A stretch of DNA of 64,000 nucleotides, taken from positions 372,001 through 436,000 of the forward strand of contig NZ_JACHBY010000003.1 of assembly GCF_014200495.1 (NCBI RefSeq). The letters are read 5' to 3'. Shown piece by piece: positions 8,029-61,319 of the stretch. Positions within the stretch are counted from its first letter, which is position 1. Each line of letters opens with the position of its first letter. This DNA comes from Mucilaginibacter geliditolerans. GTDB taxonomy: Bacteria; Bacteroidota; Bacteroidia; Sphingobacteriales; Sphingobacteriaceae. The translations under genes and the position numbers were made by a program. The notes under the pieces are model-generated. The model was not told where the DNA came from, did not search any database, and saw nothing but the letters and a program-made list of their open reading frames with translations.

Positions 8029-8284
8029 GCCGCTCAATTGCCGCTATGGCTGTTACTTTGGCTTGATCCAAAGTAACCAAAAGATCAAGTCAGCAAATAG
8101 GCTTCTTTTCGCACAGGGCCCTCGTTGCAAATCCGGCAAAACCTGGGCTGCAATCTTTTTGCGGCCTTATTGCTGCTATGGCCTGTGCGCTGCAAAAATT
8201 TCCTATGCCCTGCCCGCGCTCAAGGCCATCATTGTTTTGCCTGATCTCGGCTGAAGCTTTTTTACTGACGGCATGAAAGACTAA
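8029..8284 (+). repeat. Composite palindromic element, copy A (left half only)
   Basis: This is a half copy of the large repeat also found at 23261, 27632 and 60614. It starts with a divergent inner arm (CCGCTCAATTGCCGC), then a perfect stem-loop GTTACTTTGG-CTTGAT-CCAAAGTAAC (8052-8077), then the palindromic core (8089-8269). Core landmarks are GCAAATCCGGCAAAAC pairing with GTTTTGCCTGATCTC, and TTTTTGC pairing with GCAAAAA. The other copies have TTTTAC/GTAAAA at the last site, a paired change that keeps the stem. The right half and the outer TCATTGCGAGG arms are absent. A 63-codon frame through it (8063-8254) is not taken as a gene. Confidence 0.8.
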
Positions 8285-23137: not shown

Positions 23138-23260
23138 GGGATAAGGGATTGATTTGTAAAGGGAAAGATACGAAAAAGTGGGCTTAAATTTATTTTAAGG
23201 ATAATATTCTGTAGAACATTAATTGCGTACAACAACATGTCAATCGCATACATACATATA

Positions 23261-23778
23261 GTCTACTTGTTTTGCGAAGCCGCTCATTGCCGCGGAGGCT
23301 ACTACTTTTGTCTTGATACAAAAGGTAGCAAAAACCGACTGTAGGGAGCTCATGAATACCATTAAAGAACAAATAATAGATGAATAAATCAAGTCAGTAG
23401 ATGCTTCTTGCGCACGAGGCCTTATGCCCTGCAAATCAGGCAAAACCTAGGCTGCTATATTTTACCCGGCTGTCGCTACGCGCTTAGCCTTTGCGCTTCT
23501 GTAAAAATCTGCTATGCCTGCCACTGCACAAGCCACCATCGTTTTGCCTGATTTCGCCCGAAGCCGTTCTACTGACGGGGGAAAAAGAAAGCATTCTCTA
23601 AAAGAAATACTTTGAATGAACCTAGATCAAAAGCGGGCAAAGGCCCGACAAAAAGCGCGGGCCTGGGTGTTTTGCCTGTGGGCGGAAGGATCTTTTTGTC
23701 TTGACTTTTTGGTTCTTTTGTGTCAAGACAAAAGAACTAGCCTCCGCGGCAATGAGCGGCTTCACATGACAAGTAGAC
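23261..23778 (+). mobile_element. Composite palindromic element, copy B, with terminal inverted repeats
   Basis: A 518-bp unit is bounded by inverted arms. The left arm (from 23261) reads GTCTACTTGT..GAAGCCGCTCATTGCCGCGG, and the right arm (to 23778) is its reverse complement, matching over about 70 bp with few differences. Each arm carries a stem-loop (for example GTTCTTTTGT-GTCAAG-ACAAAAGAAC on the right). Inside is a palindromic core (23393-23576) with GCAAATCAGGCAAAAC facing GTTTTGCCTGATTTC, and then a G/C-rich part with CGGGCAAAGGCCCG. No transposase and no clear target-site duplication are seen. Calling it MITE-like is inference. Confidence 0.72.
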
Positions 23779-23835
23779 GATAACCATAACCCTTTGCACA
23801 GTCCGGGATTGCTTTGCCCCCCCTCAAACCGCTTA

Positions 23836-24009
23836 TTATTTCTTCTTCGGCACCTTCGCCCCTTCTTTCCTCGCTTCCGATAGCCCAATAGCTACGGCTT
23901 GTTTTTTACTGGTAACTTTTTTACCACTGCCACTTTTTAGTGTACCTTCTTTCATTTCATGCATGGTTTTTTCAACTTTTTCCCCTGCTTTTTCTGAGTA
24001 CTTTGCCAT
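23836..24009 (-). CDS. Small basic protein, DUF6496 family
   Basis: The protein has 57 residues: it starts MAKYSEKAGEKVEKTMHEMK, continues with EGTLKSGSGKKVTSKKQAV, and ends SEARKEGAKVPKKK. It is lysine-rich with no membrane segment. The pattern matches the small DUF6496 proteins of Bacteroidota and Proteobacteria, whose function is unknown; a nucleic-acid-binding or stress role is only a guess from charge. The ATG at 24009 is preceded by an A/T-rich stretch. It stands alone on the minus strand between repeat copy B and the Vat-like gene. Confidence 0.8.
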   Translation of the reverse strand: MAKYSEKAGEKVEKTMHEMKEGTLKSGSGKKVTSKKQAVAIGLSEARKEGAKVPKKK

Positions 24010-24039
24010 AATGTTTTTTATTTAAGTAGATGATAATAC

Positions 24040-24705
24040 TTAAAGCAAATCATCTGCCAAAAATCGTGCATTTTCCAATCCAACAATATCTATTGAATTG
24101 ATCAGGTGCAGATTAGCAGTGATATTTTCAACGCTCCAATCCCACCACGCAATTTTTAGCAGGCGTTCAATATCACTGTCACTAAATCTTTTGCGGATGA
24201 TTTTCGCGGGGTTACCCCCAACAACAGCATAATCAGGCACATCTTTGGTCACCAATGCCCTGGTGCCGATAATTGCGCCATTACCAATTTTTACGCCCGG
24301 CATAATGGTGGCATCATAGCCTATCCATACATCGCTGCCAATTATGGTGTCGCCTTTGTACGGGTATTTATCACCATGAATAACGCCATCGTTTATTCGC
24401 TCCCATCCATTCCCAAATATCGCAAAGGGGTAGGTCGACACAGGTTTTATCTCATGATTGGCGCCATTCATTATAAATTTTACGCCACAGGCAATGGCAC
24501 AAAACTTGCCGACAATGAGCTTATCGCCAATAAAGTCAAAATGATATAATACGTTATTTTCAAAACCCAGTGGGTCAACAAAATCATCGTAATAAGTAAA
24601 ATCACCCACTTCAATATTTTTCCGGGTGATGATATTCTTTAAAAAAACTAATTTCTGGTGATGCTCCACCGGGAACATAACAGCAGGATCAGGTCCATTC
24701 AGCAT
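24040..24705 (-). CDS. Vat-family xenobiotic (streptogramin A-type) acetyltransferase
   Basis: The protein has 221 residues with a left-handed beta-helix of hexapeptide repeats. Landmarks shared with Vat enzymes are NGPDPAVMFPVE at the N-terminus, GKFCAIACGVKFIMNGANHE with the catalytic His (His84), YPFAIFGNGWE, KGDTIIGSDVWIGYDATIMP and GGNPAKIIRKRF. Vat proteins acetylate streptogramin A antibiotics from acetyl-CoA in the cytoplasm; related chromosomal proteins may act on other hydroxyl compounds. No mobile-gene signature other than the nearby repeat accompanies it, so it may be an intrinsic gene. Substrate is inferred from the family. Confidence 0.88.
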   Translation of the reverse strand: MLNGPDPAVMFPVEHHQKLVFLKNIITRKNIEVGDFTYYDDFVDPLGFENNVLYHFDFIGDKLIVGKFCAIACGVKFIMNGANHEIKPVSTYPFAIFGNGWERINDGVIHGDKYPYKGDTIIGSDVWIGYDATIMPGVKIGNGAIIGTRALVTKDVPDYAVVGGNPAKIIRKRFSDSDIERLLKIAWWDWSVENITANLHLINSIDIVGLENARFLADDLL

Positions 24706-24961
24706 ATAAATGAGCTAATTAAAAAATGAATAAATAATTGATTAAACAGCTTTACGGCCTGCTGCCTTTAGAGAGGAGTATTCAGAAAGAAATTAAACAG
24801 GCCGCTTAAATAATCATTGGAGTAATCTGCTTTTGCTTAAAGCAAAGATAACCAAGTATCTATATTAAAAAAAGTATTAGCCTGCTAAATAATAATGCTT
24901 AACTTCAAAACATATAAATAATACGTGGTGTTTAGCACATAAAATTTATACTTATCGGCTT

Positions 24962-26059
24962 ATGACTGTAAAAAAAATTACGACACCTTTCTATGAAAAA
25001 CTTTCTTTAGTACTGGTAGGTCTTATTGCCCTGGGCTACCTGGTTATTCAGGCTAAAGATGTACTCGACCCAATGATGTTTGGTTTTCTATTCGCGATAC
25101 TTCTGTTGCCAATTGCAAACTTTTTTGAACGTAAGTGCCGTATGCCCCGCAGTATATCTTCGTTCCTGTCCATATTATTGCTGGTCGGTTTTATAGGTGG
25201 TATCGTTTACCTTGTAAGCTCACAAATATCCGGCCTTGCCAGCGATTGGCCACAGCTCAAAACCCAGGTAATGCAATCCGTCAATGATCTGTCTGGCTGG
25301 ATATCAACAGCATTTCATATCAATACCGATAAGCAAATGGTGTATGTACACAACACCACCAATAAAATATTGGCTGCAGGTACCGATGTTTTGGGTACAA
25401 CTTTCGGGGCCATATCATCACTTATGCTGTTCTATGCGTTCATACTTATATTCACCTTCTTTATCCTTTTCTACCGCAAGCTTTTACTGAAGTTTATCAT
25501 ATGGGTTTTTAACGAAGAAAACTCAGCCACGGTATTTGATATTGTAGAGAATGTTCAAACCATTTTAAGGCAATACATCATCGGCCTGCTGCTGGAGATG
25601 GCCATAGTAGCCACAATAGCCTGCACCCTCTTTTGGATGATCGGTGTTAAATATGCCGTTTTGTTGGGCTTATTCGTAGGGCTGTTCAACATTATACCCT
25701 ATATCGGTATTTTTTCGGCGCTGTTGCTCAGCAGTATCATCACTTTCGCTACCGGCACTATTAAACAAGCAATTGAAGTTGCCGTTGGTGTAATTGCCAT
25801 ACATGCTGTAGATTCAAACCTGTTATTGCCCACCATAGTAGGTTCAAAAGTAAGGCTTAACGCCCTGATTACATTTTTAGGAATAGTTTTTGGCGAAATG
25901 ATCTGGGGATTATCAGGTATGTTCCTTTCCATCCCTACCATAGCCATTCTCAAGATTATATTTGATCGTATTGAAAGCCTTAAACCATGGGGATTTTTAC
26001 TCGGCAGCGGCGACCATGAATCAAAAAAGACAGCCCAGAAAAAAATGAAGACTGAATAG
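24962..26059 (+). CDS. AI-2E family membrane transporter
   Basis: The protein has 365 residues with about seven or eight hydrophobic segments, including the family's central part GLLLEMAIVATIACTLFWMI and the terminal LIGVKYAVLLGLFVGLFNII-type and WGLSGMFLSIPTIAI segments. The AI-2E (PerM/TqsA) family is linked to autoinducer-2 export and, in other members, to Na+/H+ exchange, so the substrate is open. The C-terminus is short, soluble and lysine-rich. An inverted repeat downstream (26071-26112) could end the transcript. Confidence 0.88.
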   Translation: MTVKKITTPFYEKLSLVLVGLIALGYLVIQAKDVLDPMMFGFLFAILLLPIANFFERKCRMPRSISSFLSILLLVGFIGGIVYLVSSQISGLASDWPQLKTQVMQSVNDLSGWISTAFHINTDKQMVYVHNTTNKILAAGTDVLGTTFGAISSLMLFYAFILIFTFFILFYRKLLLKFIIWVFNEENSATVFDIVENVQTILRQYIIGLLLEMAIVATIACTLFWMIGVKYAVLLGLFVGLFNIIPYIGIFSALLLSSIITFATGTIKQAIEVAVGVIAIHAVDSNLLLPTIVGSKVRLNALITFLGIVFGEMIWGLSGMFLSIPTIAILKIIFDRIESLKPWGFLLGSGDHESKKTAQKKMKTE

Positions 26060-26070
26060 AACTCGATTTT

Positions 26071-26112
26071 TTTGAATTATAGAATTTCGTCAATTCGTTA
26101 ATTCTATAAATT
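26071..26112 (+). terminator. Hairpin from GAATTATAGAATT words after the AI-2E gene
   Basis: GAATTATAGAATT and AATTCTATAAATTC face each other across a short loop, just after a run of T. It is a plausible end of the AI-2E transcript, but the same words recur as dispersed repeats in this phylum. Confidence 0.45.
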
Positions 26113-26308
26113 CGGGTTCAGACAATTTGGGCGTTTCCCGCTATCCAGCGGGCCGTGCTATCCGCTTATACTACACGAGCTTGTAATCCTGAGCCTAGTC
26201 GAAGGACGCTCTTATCACTAACGCAAACTTCATCATTGGCTTTAGTCTGCGCCGACTACTGGCTTCAGTCTGTGACTGAAGCCCACAAATAATGAAAGTT
26301 TGCAACTG

Positions 26309-26635
26309 TCAAGCTGCTCCCCCCACCGCCTGGTAAACTTTAATAAAAATAGCCAATCCATAAGCCATCAACACTAAAGTGTTAATTACCAGCAGCCAGT
26401 TAAGATCAATCTCCTTATACTTTTTAATGGTGCACAAAACCAGCAGACTAATAAATCCGCCCAACAAAATTGCAGGGAATACCAATGTCCATTTTTGGCG
26501 GATCACGAAATTAAAATTTTGTAACTTGGCATTGTTGCCCGTAATATATGGCACCGTTGCTATAAGCAACAGAAAAAAGAATAAGCGTACAACTACCTTT
26601 GCAACTATCTGACTGGTTTTCATATGATCCGTCAA
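26309..26635 (-). CDS. Hypothetical three-helix membrane protein
   Basis: The protein has 108 residues and is not recognised. Three hydrophobic helices are visible: about 10-28 (VVVRLFFFLLLIATVPYI), 50-67 (LVFPAILLGGFISLLVLC) and 79-99. A short basic loop (TIKKYKEID) lies between the last two. The start is ATG at 26635; a second ATG at 26623 (MKTSQI) is equally good. It diverges from the phosphodiesterase gene, which starts at 26662, leaving a 26-bp space in which both genes must find their signals. Confidence 0.6.
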   Translation of the reverse strand: MTDHMKTSQIVAKVVVRLFFFLLLIATVPYITGNNAKLQNFNFVIRQKWTLVFPAILLGGFISLLVLCTIKKYKEIDLNWLLVINTLVLMAYGLAIFIKVYQAVGGAA

Positions 26636-26661
26636 AATTAAAAAATAATAGCTACCGAATT

Positions 26662-27618
26662 ATGCTTCGTACCCACCGTTTTATAACTGTATTATATTTT
26701 TTACTTATACCCTTTTCGGTTTTCTCACAGTCAGCGCCATCTTTCAGGATAGTGCCGCTAGGTGTTTTAGGCGGTATTGATGAAAGCAACCTATCCGCCT
26801 ATATGATTGCCGCGACAGGCACTAACAATTATGTTTGTATGGATGCGGGTACCCTGCATTACGGCATTCAGCAGACTGTGGATAATAAAGTATTCTCTAT
26901 CCCCACAGAGCAGGTGCTGAGGCAATACATCAAAGGCTACTGTATTTCGCACGCGCATCTGGACCATATCGCCGGACTCATCATCAACTCTCCCGACGAT
27001 ACCGCTAAAAATATCTATGGCTTAGCCAGCACCCTACAAACCATTAAAACACATTATTTTACATGGGACAGCTGGGCCAATTTTGCCGATGATGGCGAAG
27101 CCCCGGCACTAAAAAAATATCATTACCAGATACTTACGCCCGACAGCATTATCCCGATAAAAAATACCGGGATGACCGTTCAGGCATTTCCATTAAGCCA
27201 CTCCAACCTAACCAGCACTGCTTTTTTGGTGAATAGCAATGATGTCTATATTTTATATTTGGGCGATACCGGTGCCGATGATATTGAAAAAAGCCATAAT
27301 CTGCACAAGCTATGGCAGGCCGTTGCGCCACTCGTAAAAAGCAAAAAGCTAAAGGCTATTATGATCGAAACTTCTTTCCCCGACGAGCAGCCTGATAAAA
27401 CCCTGTTCGGCCACCTTACCCCACATTGGCTCATGGCAGAGATGGACGATCTCGCCGCACTAACCGGCACCGATGCCCTAAAAGGCTTTAACGTGATCAT
27501 CACCCACCTTAAGCCACCGCAAACAAGTATCTATAAGATCAAACTACAGCTTTTTAACGAAAACAAATTAAACTTAAACCTTATCTACCCGCAGCAGGGT
27601 GAGGCTATTGATTTGTAA
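26662..27618 (+). CDS. Secreted class II 3',5'-cyclic-nucleotide phosphodiesterase
   Basis: The protein has 318 residues from ATG 26662, with a signal peptide (LYFLLIPFSVFSQ). The fold is metallo-beta-lactamase-like: FRIVPLGVLGGIDESNLSAY, then the metal motif YCISHAHLDHIAGL (about residues 94-107), YLGDTGADDIE, and IMIETSFPDEQPDKTLFGHL, all hallmarks of class II cAMP phosphodiesterases (yeast Pde1 and Vibrio CpdP types). A periplasmic location means it would clear cyclic nucleotide outside the cytoplasm. The upstream in-frame extension to 26599 overlaps the divergent gene and lacks a signal peptide start, so it was not used. Confidence 0.88.
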   Translation: MLRTHRFITVLYFLLIPFSVFSQSAPSFRIVPLGVLGGIDESNLSAYMIAATGTNNYVCMDAGTLHYGIQQTVDNKVFSIPTEQVLRQYIKGYCISHAHLDHIAGLIINSPDDTAKNIYGLASTLQTIKTHYFTWDSWANFADDGEAPALKKYHYQILTPDSIIPIKNTGMTVQAFPLSHSNLTSTAFLVNSNDVYILYLGDTGADDIEKSHNLHKLWQAVAPLVKSKKLKAIMIETSFPDEQPDKTLFGHLTPHWLMAEMDDLAALTGTDALKGFNVIITHLKPPQTSIYKIKLQLFNENKLNLNLIYPQQGEAIDL

Positions 27619-27631
27619 AAAAACAACCATA

Positions 27632-28312
27632 TCATTGCGAACAATAGTGTGGCAATCCTGTAGCTATCAGGTTTGAGTGCCTATTGAGTCACATGAAGCC
27701 GCTCATTGCCGCGGGGGCTACTACTTTTGTCTTGATACAAAAGGTAGCAAAAACCGACTGTAGGGAGCTCATGAATACCATTAAAGAACAAATAATAGAT
27801 GAATAAATCAAGTCAGTAGAAATGCTTCTTTGCCGCACAAGGCCTCTGCCCTGCAAATCAGGCAAAACCTGGGCTGCTATATTTTTACGCCGCTGTCGCT
27901 ACGCGCTTAGCCTTTACGCTTCTGTAAAAATCTGCTATGCCCTGCCACGCACAAGGCCACCGTTGTTTTGCCTGATTTCGCCCGAAGCTGTTCTACTGAC
28001 AAGGAAAGAAAAAACTTAATTGAACCGTGATCAAAAGCGCGTCGGCCCTGACAACAAGGGCGGGCCAGCGTTGGCGGGAATGACGGTTTAGCTTTTTGTG
28101 TGATGTGAAGGTACGAATGTACCGAACAGCGAAAAAAGCGTGAAGAACCGGCAGGGAGCAAGGGAAGCATCCTTGTTGTCTTGATTTTTTTGGTTACTTT
28201 TTGTATCAAGACAAAAAGTGACTTCTTAGCGAAAAGCGATACCATAAGATAGGTCTACAACTATGCCTATTCGCTCTGCACAGTCGGGGATTGCTTCGTT
28301 CCTCGCAATGAC
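27632..28312 (+). mobile_element. Composite palindromic element, copy C
   Basis: The element fills the convergent gap between the phosphodiesterase and the PfkB gene. The left outer arm (TCATTGCGA, 27632) and right outer arm (CCTCGCAATGA, about 28301-28311) are reverse complements. Inside are the inner arm GAAGCCGCTCATTGCCGCGG (from 27695) with a CTACTTTTGT-CTTGAT-ACAAAAGGTAG stem-loop, the core (27812-28000) with GCAAATCAGGCAAAAC facing GTTTTGCCTGATTTC and TTTTTAC facing GTAAAAA, and a right stem-loop GTTACTTTTTGT-ATCAAG-ACAAAAAGTGAC. The middle-right part has diverged from copies B and D. No gene is accepted in it. Confidence 0.72.
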
Positions 28313-60583: not shown

Positions 60584-60613
60584 TTTACTATAGCTTTCAC
60601 CAATACCTCCACG

Positions 60614-61303
60614 CGTCATTGCGAGGAACGAAGCAATCCCAAACTATGCAGATCGGCTCTGCTAATCGGGGATTGCTTCGTTATTTTAAAGCTTTCTCTT
60701 TACACGTTATTACGCGGTACAACCTGTCCCGAACTTGCTTCGAGAAAGCAATCCCCGGGTGAGAGCGAATATACAAGGCTATTTACTTATCTGATGGTAT
60801 CGCTCATAGCCGCTAAGGCCTATTTCTTTTGTCTTGATACAAAAGAAACAAAAAGTCAAGTCAGTAGAAATGTTTCTTTGCCGCACGAGGCCTCTTCCCT
60901 GCAAATCAGGCAAAACCTGGGCTGCTATATTTTTACCCTGCTGTCGCTACACACCTGGCCTTTACGCTTCTGTAAAAATCTGCTATGCCCTGCCACGCTC
61001 AAGGCCACCATCGTTTTGCCTGATTTCGCCCGAAGCTGTTCTACTGACGGGGGAGCCACGTAATTTCTTAAGATGAAGGAACTTTAATTGAATCGTGATC
61101 AAAAGCGGGTAAAGGCCCGACAAAAAGCGCGGGCCTGGGTGTTTTGCCTGTGGGTGGAAGGATCTTTTTGTCTTGACTTTTTGTTTCTTTTGTGTCAAGA
61201 CAAAAGAAATAGGGCTCCGCGCCCATGAGCGGCTTCAAGCGACATTCACGCCAGCATATTCGCCCTGCATAGTCGGGGATTGCTTCGTTCCTCGCAATGA
61301 CGC
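60614..61303 (+). mobile_element. Composite palindromic element, copy D
   Basis: This fills the convergent gap between the second YfhO gene and the GT2 gene. The outer arms start at CGTCATTGCGAGGAACGAAG (60614) and end at its reverse complement CTTCGTTCCTCGCAATGACG (61303). The inner arms carry the stem-loops TTTCTTTTGT-CTTGAT-ACAAAAGAAA (60823-60848) and TTTCTTTTGT-GTCAAG-ACAAAAGAAA (61184-61209), identical in stem. The core is 60860-61048, followed by CGGGTAAAGGCCCG and a G/C-rich part like copy B. The extra left part contains a second TCGGGGATTGCTTCG arm near 60677. It has no convincing gene. Confidence 0.75.
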
Positions 61304-61319
61304 TTTGTTTTATTAAGCA

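Follow-up and report, generated by a model that had tools for sequence, protein, structure and literature searches.

In bacteria, most interspersed repeats are short palindromes. Structured RNA modules tied to mobile DNA are also known, including the HEARO/omega RNAs and the bridge RNAs of IS110, and retron non-coding RNAs and other repeats resembling multicopy single-stranded DNA (msDNA) have a closing stem around a long hairpin. Miniature inverted-repeat transposable elements (MITEs) end in terminal inverted repeats and need no open reading frame (ORF). Here, we describe a folded, non-coding repeat found in 64,000 nucleotides of Mucilaginibacter geliditolerans DNA (contig NZ_JACHBY010000003.1, positions 372,001 to 436,000; hereafter the window). 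With MITEs, the repeat shares inverted terminal arms (63 nt, 89% complementary) and the lack of an ORF. It differs from them in that no parent transposase or target-site duplication was found in the searches described below, and in that its ends fold on one strand. Like the HEARO/omega and bridge RNAs, it is an RNA-like module, but it had no Rfam match above threshold and no linked protein was found near it. It shares with retron RNAs the closing stem around a long hairpin, whereas the window genome contains no match to the reverse transcriptase domain RVT_1.

Doublets of repetitive extragenic palindromic (REP) sequences, or REPINs, are defined in PMC3116915. Some REP-associated tyrosine transposases (RAYTs) of Bacteroidetes have atypical structures at their flanks (PMC6006769), CGTC repeats are mentioned for the same phylum (PMC3733652), and Flavo-1 (RF01705) is among its candidate RNAs (PMC2864571). 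The present repeat resembles REPINs in forming inverted extragenic doublets of high copy number with no gene inside. It differs in that its unit is not a palindrome of 20-40 bp: it is ~250 nt long, with many helices, several of which covary, and a pseudoknot. Moreover, each doublet combines two distinct modules, and no linked RAYT was found. The hairpins of RAYT subclass 2.6 (PMC6006769) are similar in phylum, in their atypical structure, and in having copies elsewhere. Those hairpins adjoin the gene, whereas the RAYT-like genes of the window genome, inspected by eye, carry hairpins other than that of the repeat. Flavo-1 is likewise a structured motif of Bacteroidetes but is a single hairpin of 76 positions.

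Anatomy of the repeat

The sequence at 60801-61231 of the window, copy D, is one copy of a non-coding repeat of this Mucilaginibacter genome. The genome is designated G000 and the window lies on its contig C3; G072 and G163 are sister genomes and L-numbers are loci. At least 58 type 1 cores, the central part of one of the two modules described below, were tallied in the 6.5-Mb genome. The main listing contributed 53 distinct cores (55 rows, two of which duplicate window copies; one core ends at a contig end), and 5 were found elsewhere.

A first-pass annotation of the window had described arm stems and loops that vary among copies A to D by paired changes. Direct reading of the sequence and a repeat search located all of them: stem TTTCTTTTGT/ACAAAAGAAA of copy D, which recurs in its right arm; GTTCTTTTGT/ACAAAAGAAC in the right arm of copy B (within 23697-23758); GTTACTTTGG/CCAAAGTAAC in copy A (within 8031-8271); and GTTACTTTTTGT/ACAAAAAGTGAC in the right arm of copy C (within 28163-28216). 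The loops are CTTGAT, ATCAAG, and GTCAAG, as annotated. Similarly, the core stem TTTTTAC/GTAAAAA (60930-60936 with 60972-60978) becomes TTTTTGC/GCAAAAA in copy A. The annotated span, 60823-61209, lies inside the element but is too short, the true extent being 60801-61231. The inverted arms occupy 60801-60863 and 61169-61231 (repeat search I1). Together with the REP-like repeats outside it, copy D falls within 60602-61314.

The 70 units inspected out of 102 oriented ones, and further units, share a plan that opens with the terminal hairpin H1 (NNNGCTC..GCCGCNNN), continues with a second hairpin, H2, and ends in the body. The H2 loop is complementary to a short stretch lying slightly farther downstream, at a distance of a few bases (CTTGAT/ATCAAG, CTTGAC/GTCAAG, CTTGAA/TTCAAG, AAGCAC/GTGCTT, etc.), the two forming an H-type pseudoknot. 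This pseudoknot was missed in the first-pass annotation, and the fold is bigger than described there. The type 1 body is ~190 nt and comprises a closing stem, P1, the conserved P1b, the 14-bp P2, and P3/P4. The type 2 body is ~55 nt, with a longer second variant, and has its own closing stem. Variants of the latter stem in other species and genera still pair (GACAGAAA/TTTCTGTC, GAAAGAAC/GTTCTTTC, and GAAAAGAA/TTCTTTTC), which illustrates the pairing rather than tests it, as the search demanded a perfect closing stem. Among 29 units from G000 and G072, 23 have a type 2 partner, always facing type 1 with the arms outward; the other six have no partner by the motif used. The loop motifs GCTTC and GCCGCAC are invariant or nearly so, and the pseudoknot linker is T-rich on the strand favored by wobble pairs (see below).

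Past the edge of P1, the sequence varies among copies except for a purine-rich tract: the first five bases are 76% purine (84 units), compared with near 50% farther out. At named loci, many copies carry a purine-rich GGGGAAGAAAA tract at this position. An insert of ~55 nt (CCGAGCGTAGCGAGATAATGAGCACC..GAATAA type) was observed in L118, L140, L145, and L167 and in copies B and C. It sits past H2 or, inverted, within the 5' side of H2, and the pseudoknot strands match regardless.

Covariation and selection on folding

Pairing was evaluated using RNAalifold and a covariation test modelled on the idea of R-scape rather than R-scape itself. All column pairs were scored using a G-test with average product correction. 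For the null alignments, parsimony substitutions on a FastTree tree were put back at random columns; recombination between copies lies outside this null model. The main alignment contained 130 non-redundant units, obtained from 179 distinct units by removing 31 that had no parsed hairpin or a long linker and 18 that were redundant. The hairpin parses used in this choice, and in the loop test below, are crude.

In 40 cores, RNAalifold predicted 35 pairs, 21 of which had two-sided changes. In the 130 units, 11 of ~36,600 column pairs were significant at E<0.05 (60 null alignments). H2 and the pseudoknot account for three each, P2 for two, and H1, P1, and P3 for one apiece. Ten of these are exact partners in helices that had been proposed beforehand, while the eleventh, 63-84, falls two columns off the pseudoknot partner. 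Several of the pairs span >100 columns. The test was also performed on 60 units that were <80% identical (100 null alignments). Seven pairs were significant at E<0.05, of which six were exact partners. H2 and the pseudoknot held two pairs each, one of the pseudoknot pairs being two columns off, and P1, P2, and P3 held a single pair each. The H1 pair was below significance in this set. By the first-pass annotation, a larger alignment without covariation above phylogenetic background would have refuted selection on folding. Such covariation was observed in both sets of units.

Matching between the H2 loop and the downstream strand was evaluated using a shuffle test that depends little on alignment. 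A complementary run of at least 4 bases was present in 80 of 121 distinct pairs, whereas shuffling gave 56 on average and 68 at most. For the 64 pairs with other loops, the count was 24 versus a shuffled maximum of 19.

The paired substitutions among copies A to D, from which selection on folding had originally been argued, are real but are weak evidence by themselves, because whole hairpins swap as blocks and copies within a genome are not independent. These blocks are probably exchanged by conversion or recombination between copies. It is across species that selection on folding is supported, both by the covariation and by the matching of the H2 loop to its downstream strand: letters and orientation change while the fold is kept, and the fold itself thus appears to matter. 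We conclude that a fold formed on one strand, pseudoknot included, is under selection, and that the covariation is real and results from it.

Strand bias

On the window strand, helix cells contained 211 A.C or C.A combinations versus 85 G.T or T.G, and a smaller count gave 35 versus 18, the cells tallying sequences rather than events. Because an A.C combination corresponds to a G.T wobble on the complementary strand, it is the opposite strand that pairs better and tolerates the variants. The favored strand is the one opposite to the window strand, read from P1 to the arm. The bias (G.T vs A.C) was apparent in P2 (11 vs 62), P3 (6 vs 45), H2 (10 vs 32), and P1 (26 vs 40), and no clear bias was observed in H1 (10 vs 13) or the pseudoknot (22 vs 19). 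The earlier proposal of selection on folding is qualified in this respect: it is on one strand, not on both, that variants are tolerated. The bias is compatible with an RNA and with DNA of which a single strand is bound in one polarity, and does not separate the two.

Distribution and relation to described families

A covariance model of the type 1 core, R1, matched 123 of 149 Mucilaginibacter genomes, the remaining 26 having no match. In an order-wide sample, 99 of 400 genomes matched. The matches listed included at least 11 genomes from other genera of Sphingobacteriaceae, with 1 to 32 matches each. By eye, the pairing of type 2 with type 1, arms outward, also occurs in one of these other genera (G185). 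In G437, from another genus, units form arrays of alternating orientation spaced by ~300 bp (L253, L254). A pattern scan returned at least 97 loci, those listed being from Mucilaginibacter or from metagenome-assembled genomes of Bacteroidetes. In other families of the class, 5 of 16 genomes gave short, weak DNA matches. Inspected by eye, these five loci (L088-L092) contain H2-like hairpins with a matching downstream strand (CTTGAT/ATCAAG etc.), followed in L088 and L092 by a stem resembling the type 2 closing stem. The plasmids and phages searched contained no match, and the core pattern occurred once in a collection of viral contigs (L192 7639-7812, on a 32.7-kb contig). L144 (3125-3709) and L203 (1316) contain a hairpin repeat of another kind, its stems formed by AAAGAAAAAGTAC and its edges by CATCCACTG.

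No Rfam family, HEARO and omega RNA included, scored above its gathering threshold on the window or on any unit searched. Relaxed thresholds yielded only sub-threshold matches on or beside units. Flavo-1 matched L086 426-501, ~150 bases from a unit, at 27.7 bits against a threshold of 42 (E 0.00095 in 541 bases); rRNA matches at relaxed thresholds lie elsewhere in L086. A second Flavo-1 match, of 13.1 bits, overlaps the right arm of copy D. In full-text literature searches, judged on titles and abstract openings, no published description of the repeat was recognised.

Turnover between sister genomes

The YfhO-type protein encoded beside copy D is 97% (G072) and 95% (G163) identical in amino acid sequence to that of G000. 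Copy A occupies a site shared with G072, where the flanks are ~94% identical. In G072, its H2 differs as a block on both sides and its core stem is TTTTAC/GTAAAA, versus TTTTTGC/GCAAAAA in G000. At 23216-28248 of the window, direct copies B and C surround three genes; the corresponding interval of G072 is 654 bp with one unit, as expected from recombination between B and C. The genes between B and C encode a hexapeptide protein and members of the AI-2E transporter and class II cAMP phosphodiesterase families. At the site of copy D, the doublet is reversed in G072 and the element is absent from G163. In the latter, the site holds a DUF433/DUF5615 gene pair (L302 10818-11408).

The G072 units examined were its best-scoring units and those opposite the window. 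Among 14 further copies, 11 were matched by their flanks to G000 copies, 8 in the same orientation and 3 reversed. The reversed doublets were matched by both flanks for L013/L306 and L020/L312 and by one flank for L030/L309. A further site, L311, is shared, with G000 holding a unit in the same orientation; at L305 and L314, G000 has other REP-like repeats and no unit. In total, 15 of 17 G072 units share their site with G000; four of the 15, all doublets, are reversed, and 2 of the 17 lack a counterpart. Visual comparison at L013/L306 (left arm) and L030/L309 (right arm) shows an outer arm that the two genomes have in common, next to bodies that have been exchanged. At L052 1975-3347, an IS110-family element breaks P1 of one G000 copy, and the G072 copy is uninterrupted.

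Gene context

The units are mostly intergenic, with 7 of 150 lying inside a long ORF. (Counts of units over loci, here and in the neighbor-ORF and Y1-relative searches below, include some duplicates, the same contigs being present in two records.) For 119 units with both neighbors, the flanking genes were convergent in 38 cases, tandem in 65, and divergent in 16, as compared to 43, 149, and 59, respectively, for 251 baseline gaps of at least 100. The orientation of neighbors relative to the unit was even (++ 31, -- 34). This context indicates tolerated insertions rather than a cis-regulatory element.

Copy D lies between a gene for a YfhO-type membrane protein on the left and one for a family 2 glycosyltransferase on the right. 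A REP-like repeat of CATTGCGAGGAACGAAGCAATCC type, distinct from the element, borders many copies and is absent from others; similar REP-like repeats sit at element-free sites of the sister genomes. The features of the window are summarized in Table 1.

Table 1. Coordinates of the repeat copies and associated features in the window.
Feature	Position	Strand	Basis
Copy D, whole doublet: left arm, type 1 body, spacer, type 2 body, right arm	60801..61231	.	Inverted repeat I1; genome copies
Left H1, terminal hairpin region (GCTC..GCCGC)	60801..60822	-	Column pair 26-41 covaries, E 0.017
Left H2, stem TTTCTTTTGT/ACAAAAGAAA, loop CTTGAT 60833-60838	60823..60848	-	Column pairs 49-74, 57-66, 58-65, E<0.05
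Pseudoknot strand GTCAAG; partner is loop 60833-60838 over linker 60849-60854	60855..60860	-	Column pairs 63-82, 64-81; loop/tail shuffle test
Type 1 body	60860..61049	-	RNAalifold; tree-null covariation; core covariance model R1
Type 1 helix P1	60860-60868/61040-61048	-	As for type 1 body
Type 1 helix P1b	60872-60876/61032-61036	-	As for type 1 body
Type 1 helix P2	60903-60916/61013-61026	-	As for type 1 body
Type 1 helix P3	60919-60922/60987-60990	-	As for type 1 body
Type 1 helix P4	60930-60936/60972-60978	-	As for type 1 body
Type 2 body, closing stem GACAAAAAG 61119-61127 / CTTTTTGTC 61164-61172	61119..61172	+	Stem variants elsewhere
Right pseudoknot strand CTTGAC 61172-61177 and right H2 61184-61209, loop GTCAAG	61172..61209	+	Sequence; arm type as left
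Right H1	61210..61231	+	Inverted repeat I1
Copy A, single type 1 unit; site and orientation kept in G072	8031..8271	-	Genome comparison
Copy B, doublet; left linker carries ~50-nt insert	23281..23758	-	Genome comparison
Copy C, doublet; longer type 2 body and linker insert	27700..28216	-	Genome comparison
Outer REP-like repeat, left	60602..60663	.	I2, 81% complementary to 61253-61314
Outer REP-like repeat, right	61253..61314	.	I2

A possible mobile repeat

The explanation we favor, tentatively and at somewhat short of an even chance, is that the element is a non-autonomous, non-coding mobile repeat of Sphingobacteriaceae whose arm has relatives elsewhere in the class, and that each of its modules must fold single-stranded. 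Its working form would be the doublet, in which two unlike folded modules point their arms outward. Mobilisation of the copies may occur in trans: an enzyme would recognise, in one strand, the folded arm made up of H1 and the pseudoknotted H2, and one acting on single-stranded DNA would be the likeliest mover. Later recombination or conversion between the inverted arms could then exchange bodies and turn doublets in place. Hairpins would thus change as blocks, and only copies that still fold would go on spreading. In favor of this explanation are the covariation above the phylogenetic null, the wobble asymmetry, the mostly intergenic placement with even orientation to neighbors, the sites filled in one sister genome and vacant in another, the reversed doublets, the uniform arms-out pairing of type 1 with type 2 in all 23 doublets, and the presence of Y1 genes in every genome with at least 7 scored copies.

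Several observations weigh against this explanation. In the comparison of sister genomes, the reversed element at the D site is 77% identical, compared with ~91-92% for its flanks, and at L020/L312 and L030/L309 the two genomes hold different type 2 variants. Reversed bodies are thus often of another type or more diverged than their flanks, which makes replacement as possible as simple inversion. At the two sites occupied in one genome, no clean target-site duplication was seen, and the flanks carry other repeats.

Further difficulties come from the search for a mobilising enzyme, none of which was found among neighboring ORFs, Y1/RAYT genes, or reverse transcriptases. Among the listed clusters of the 635 ORFs within 1.5 kb of units (at least 3 loci per cluster, at most 22), there was no autonomous partner and no recurrent mobile family; these clusters mostly reflect shared chromosomal contexts and some spurious ORFs within repeat arrays. 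G000 has seven Y1 matches, read as one IS200-like and six RAYT-like genes, and the six latter (L059-L064) each have, by eye, a different type of hairpin alongside, other than that of the repeat. Across 324 loci (1.72 Mb with overlaps, 292 units), the G000 Y1 proteins had only one relative. The association with Y1 genes, by contrast, counts in favor: they were present in all 58 Mucilaginibacter genomes with at least 7 scored copies, and the 16 genomes of the genus without Y1 had 0-6 copies (Fisher p 2.5e-4, 149 genomes; p 0.008 within a set of about 4.0-5.7 Mb typed by hand). In this association, however, copies were scored up to 17 per genome, and ancestry and general permissiveness to mobile DNA are uncontrolled. 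Arms found without a core accompany the type 2 body, with no gene-bearing element among the matches listed. Similarly, no autonomous relative with the same ends was found near units or behind core-less arms, whole genomes not having been scanned.

A bolder form of the mobile-repeat explanation, which we consider doubtful, is that the element represents a new class of mobile element with a common arm throughout the class Bacteroidia. Its two pseudoknotted, RNA-like modules, set arms-out, would direct their own recombination: a host enzyme would read the folded arms and swap or flip the bodies, such that sites persist while content and orientation turn over.

Alternative explanations

The main rival to a mobile repeat is an RNA function, an unlikely but substantial alternative. 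According to this explanation, the modules belong to a putative functional structured RNA family, are transcribed from P1 towards the arm, and are copied by ordinary duplication. The wobble asymmetry favoring one strand argues for it, as do the (near-)invariant loop motifs and the T-rich pseudoknot linker on that strand. However, the units are not biased in orientation relative to genes, the neighbor clusters listed contain no mobile or partner gene that recurs, and the sequence past the P1 edge differs among copies, save for the purine-rich tract. Moreover, the sister genomes differ in occupancy, and 26 of the 149 genus genomes lack a match.

It is improbable that the repeat is a large element of REP/REPIN type moved by a resident RAYT (Y1) transposase. 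The inverted doublets, intergenic position, and high copy number are consistent with such an element, as is the occurrence of Y1 in every genome with at least 7 scored copies. Moreover, PMC6006769 reports subclass 2.6 RAYTs of Bacteroidetes with atypical flanking structures and copies elsewhere. Against these points stand the different hairpins beside the RAYT-like genes (judged by eye, in G000 only), the single Y1 relative in the 324 loci, and the unit itself, ~250 nt with a pseudoknot.

Spread by reverse transcription, in the manner of a retron or a short interspersed nuclear element (SINE), appears very unlikely. It would account for the one-strand fold and for the purine-rich, A-rich tract past P1. 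Nevertheless, RVT_1 had no match in G000 or in 18 of 33 genomes with at least 12 scored copies, which disfavors resident enzymes of this kind. Equally remote is the idea that the body is a guide-type RNA, such as an IS110 bridge RNA or an omega RNA of IscB/TnpB, left behind by an RNA-guided element. By analogy, a two-module folded RNA with a pseudoknot at the element's end might be expected of such a system. Nevertheless, Rfam yielded nothing above threshold, the neighbor clusters listed contained no recurrent recombinase or nuclease and no IS110 gene, and the sole IS110 gene seen interrupts a copy that is intact in G072. Finally, it is scarcely credible that recombination between copies and their common ancestry produced the covariation as an artefact. 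Hairpins do move as blocks and copies do recombine, both of which the tree null ignores. Against an artefact, 10 of 11 pairs join exact complementary partners and the remaining one misses by two columns, several pairs lie >100 columns apart, and the result partly holds for units <80% identical.

Implications

Selection has maintained a pseudoknotted fold of ~250 nt across a genus and in related genera, and some genomes carry dozens of copies. Searches of Rfam, of neighboring genes, and for Y1 and RVT_1 revealed no known RNA family or enzyme behind it. The repeat is a natural, highly replicated test of which form of repeat ends is recognised, folded RNA or folded single-stranded DNA. It also tests how frequently a pair of inverted arms reverses an element without moving it.
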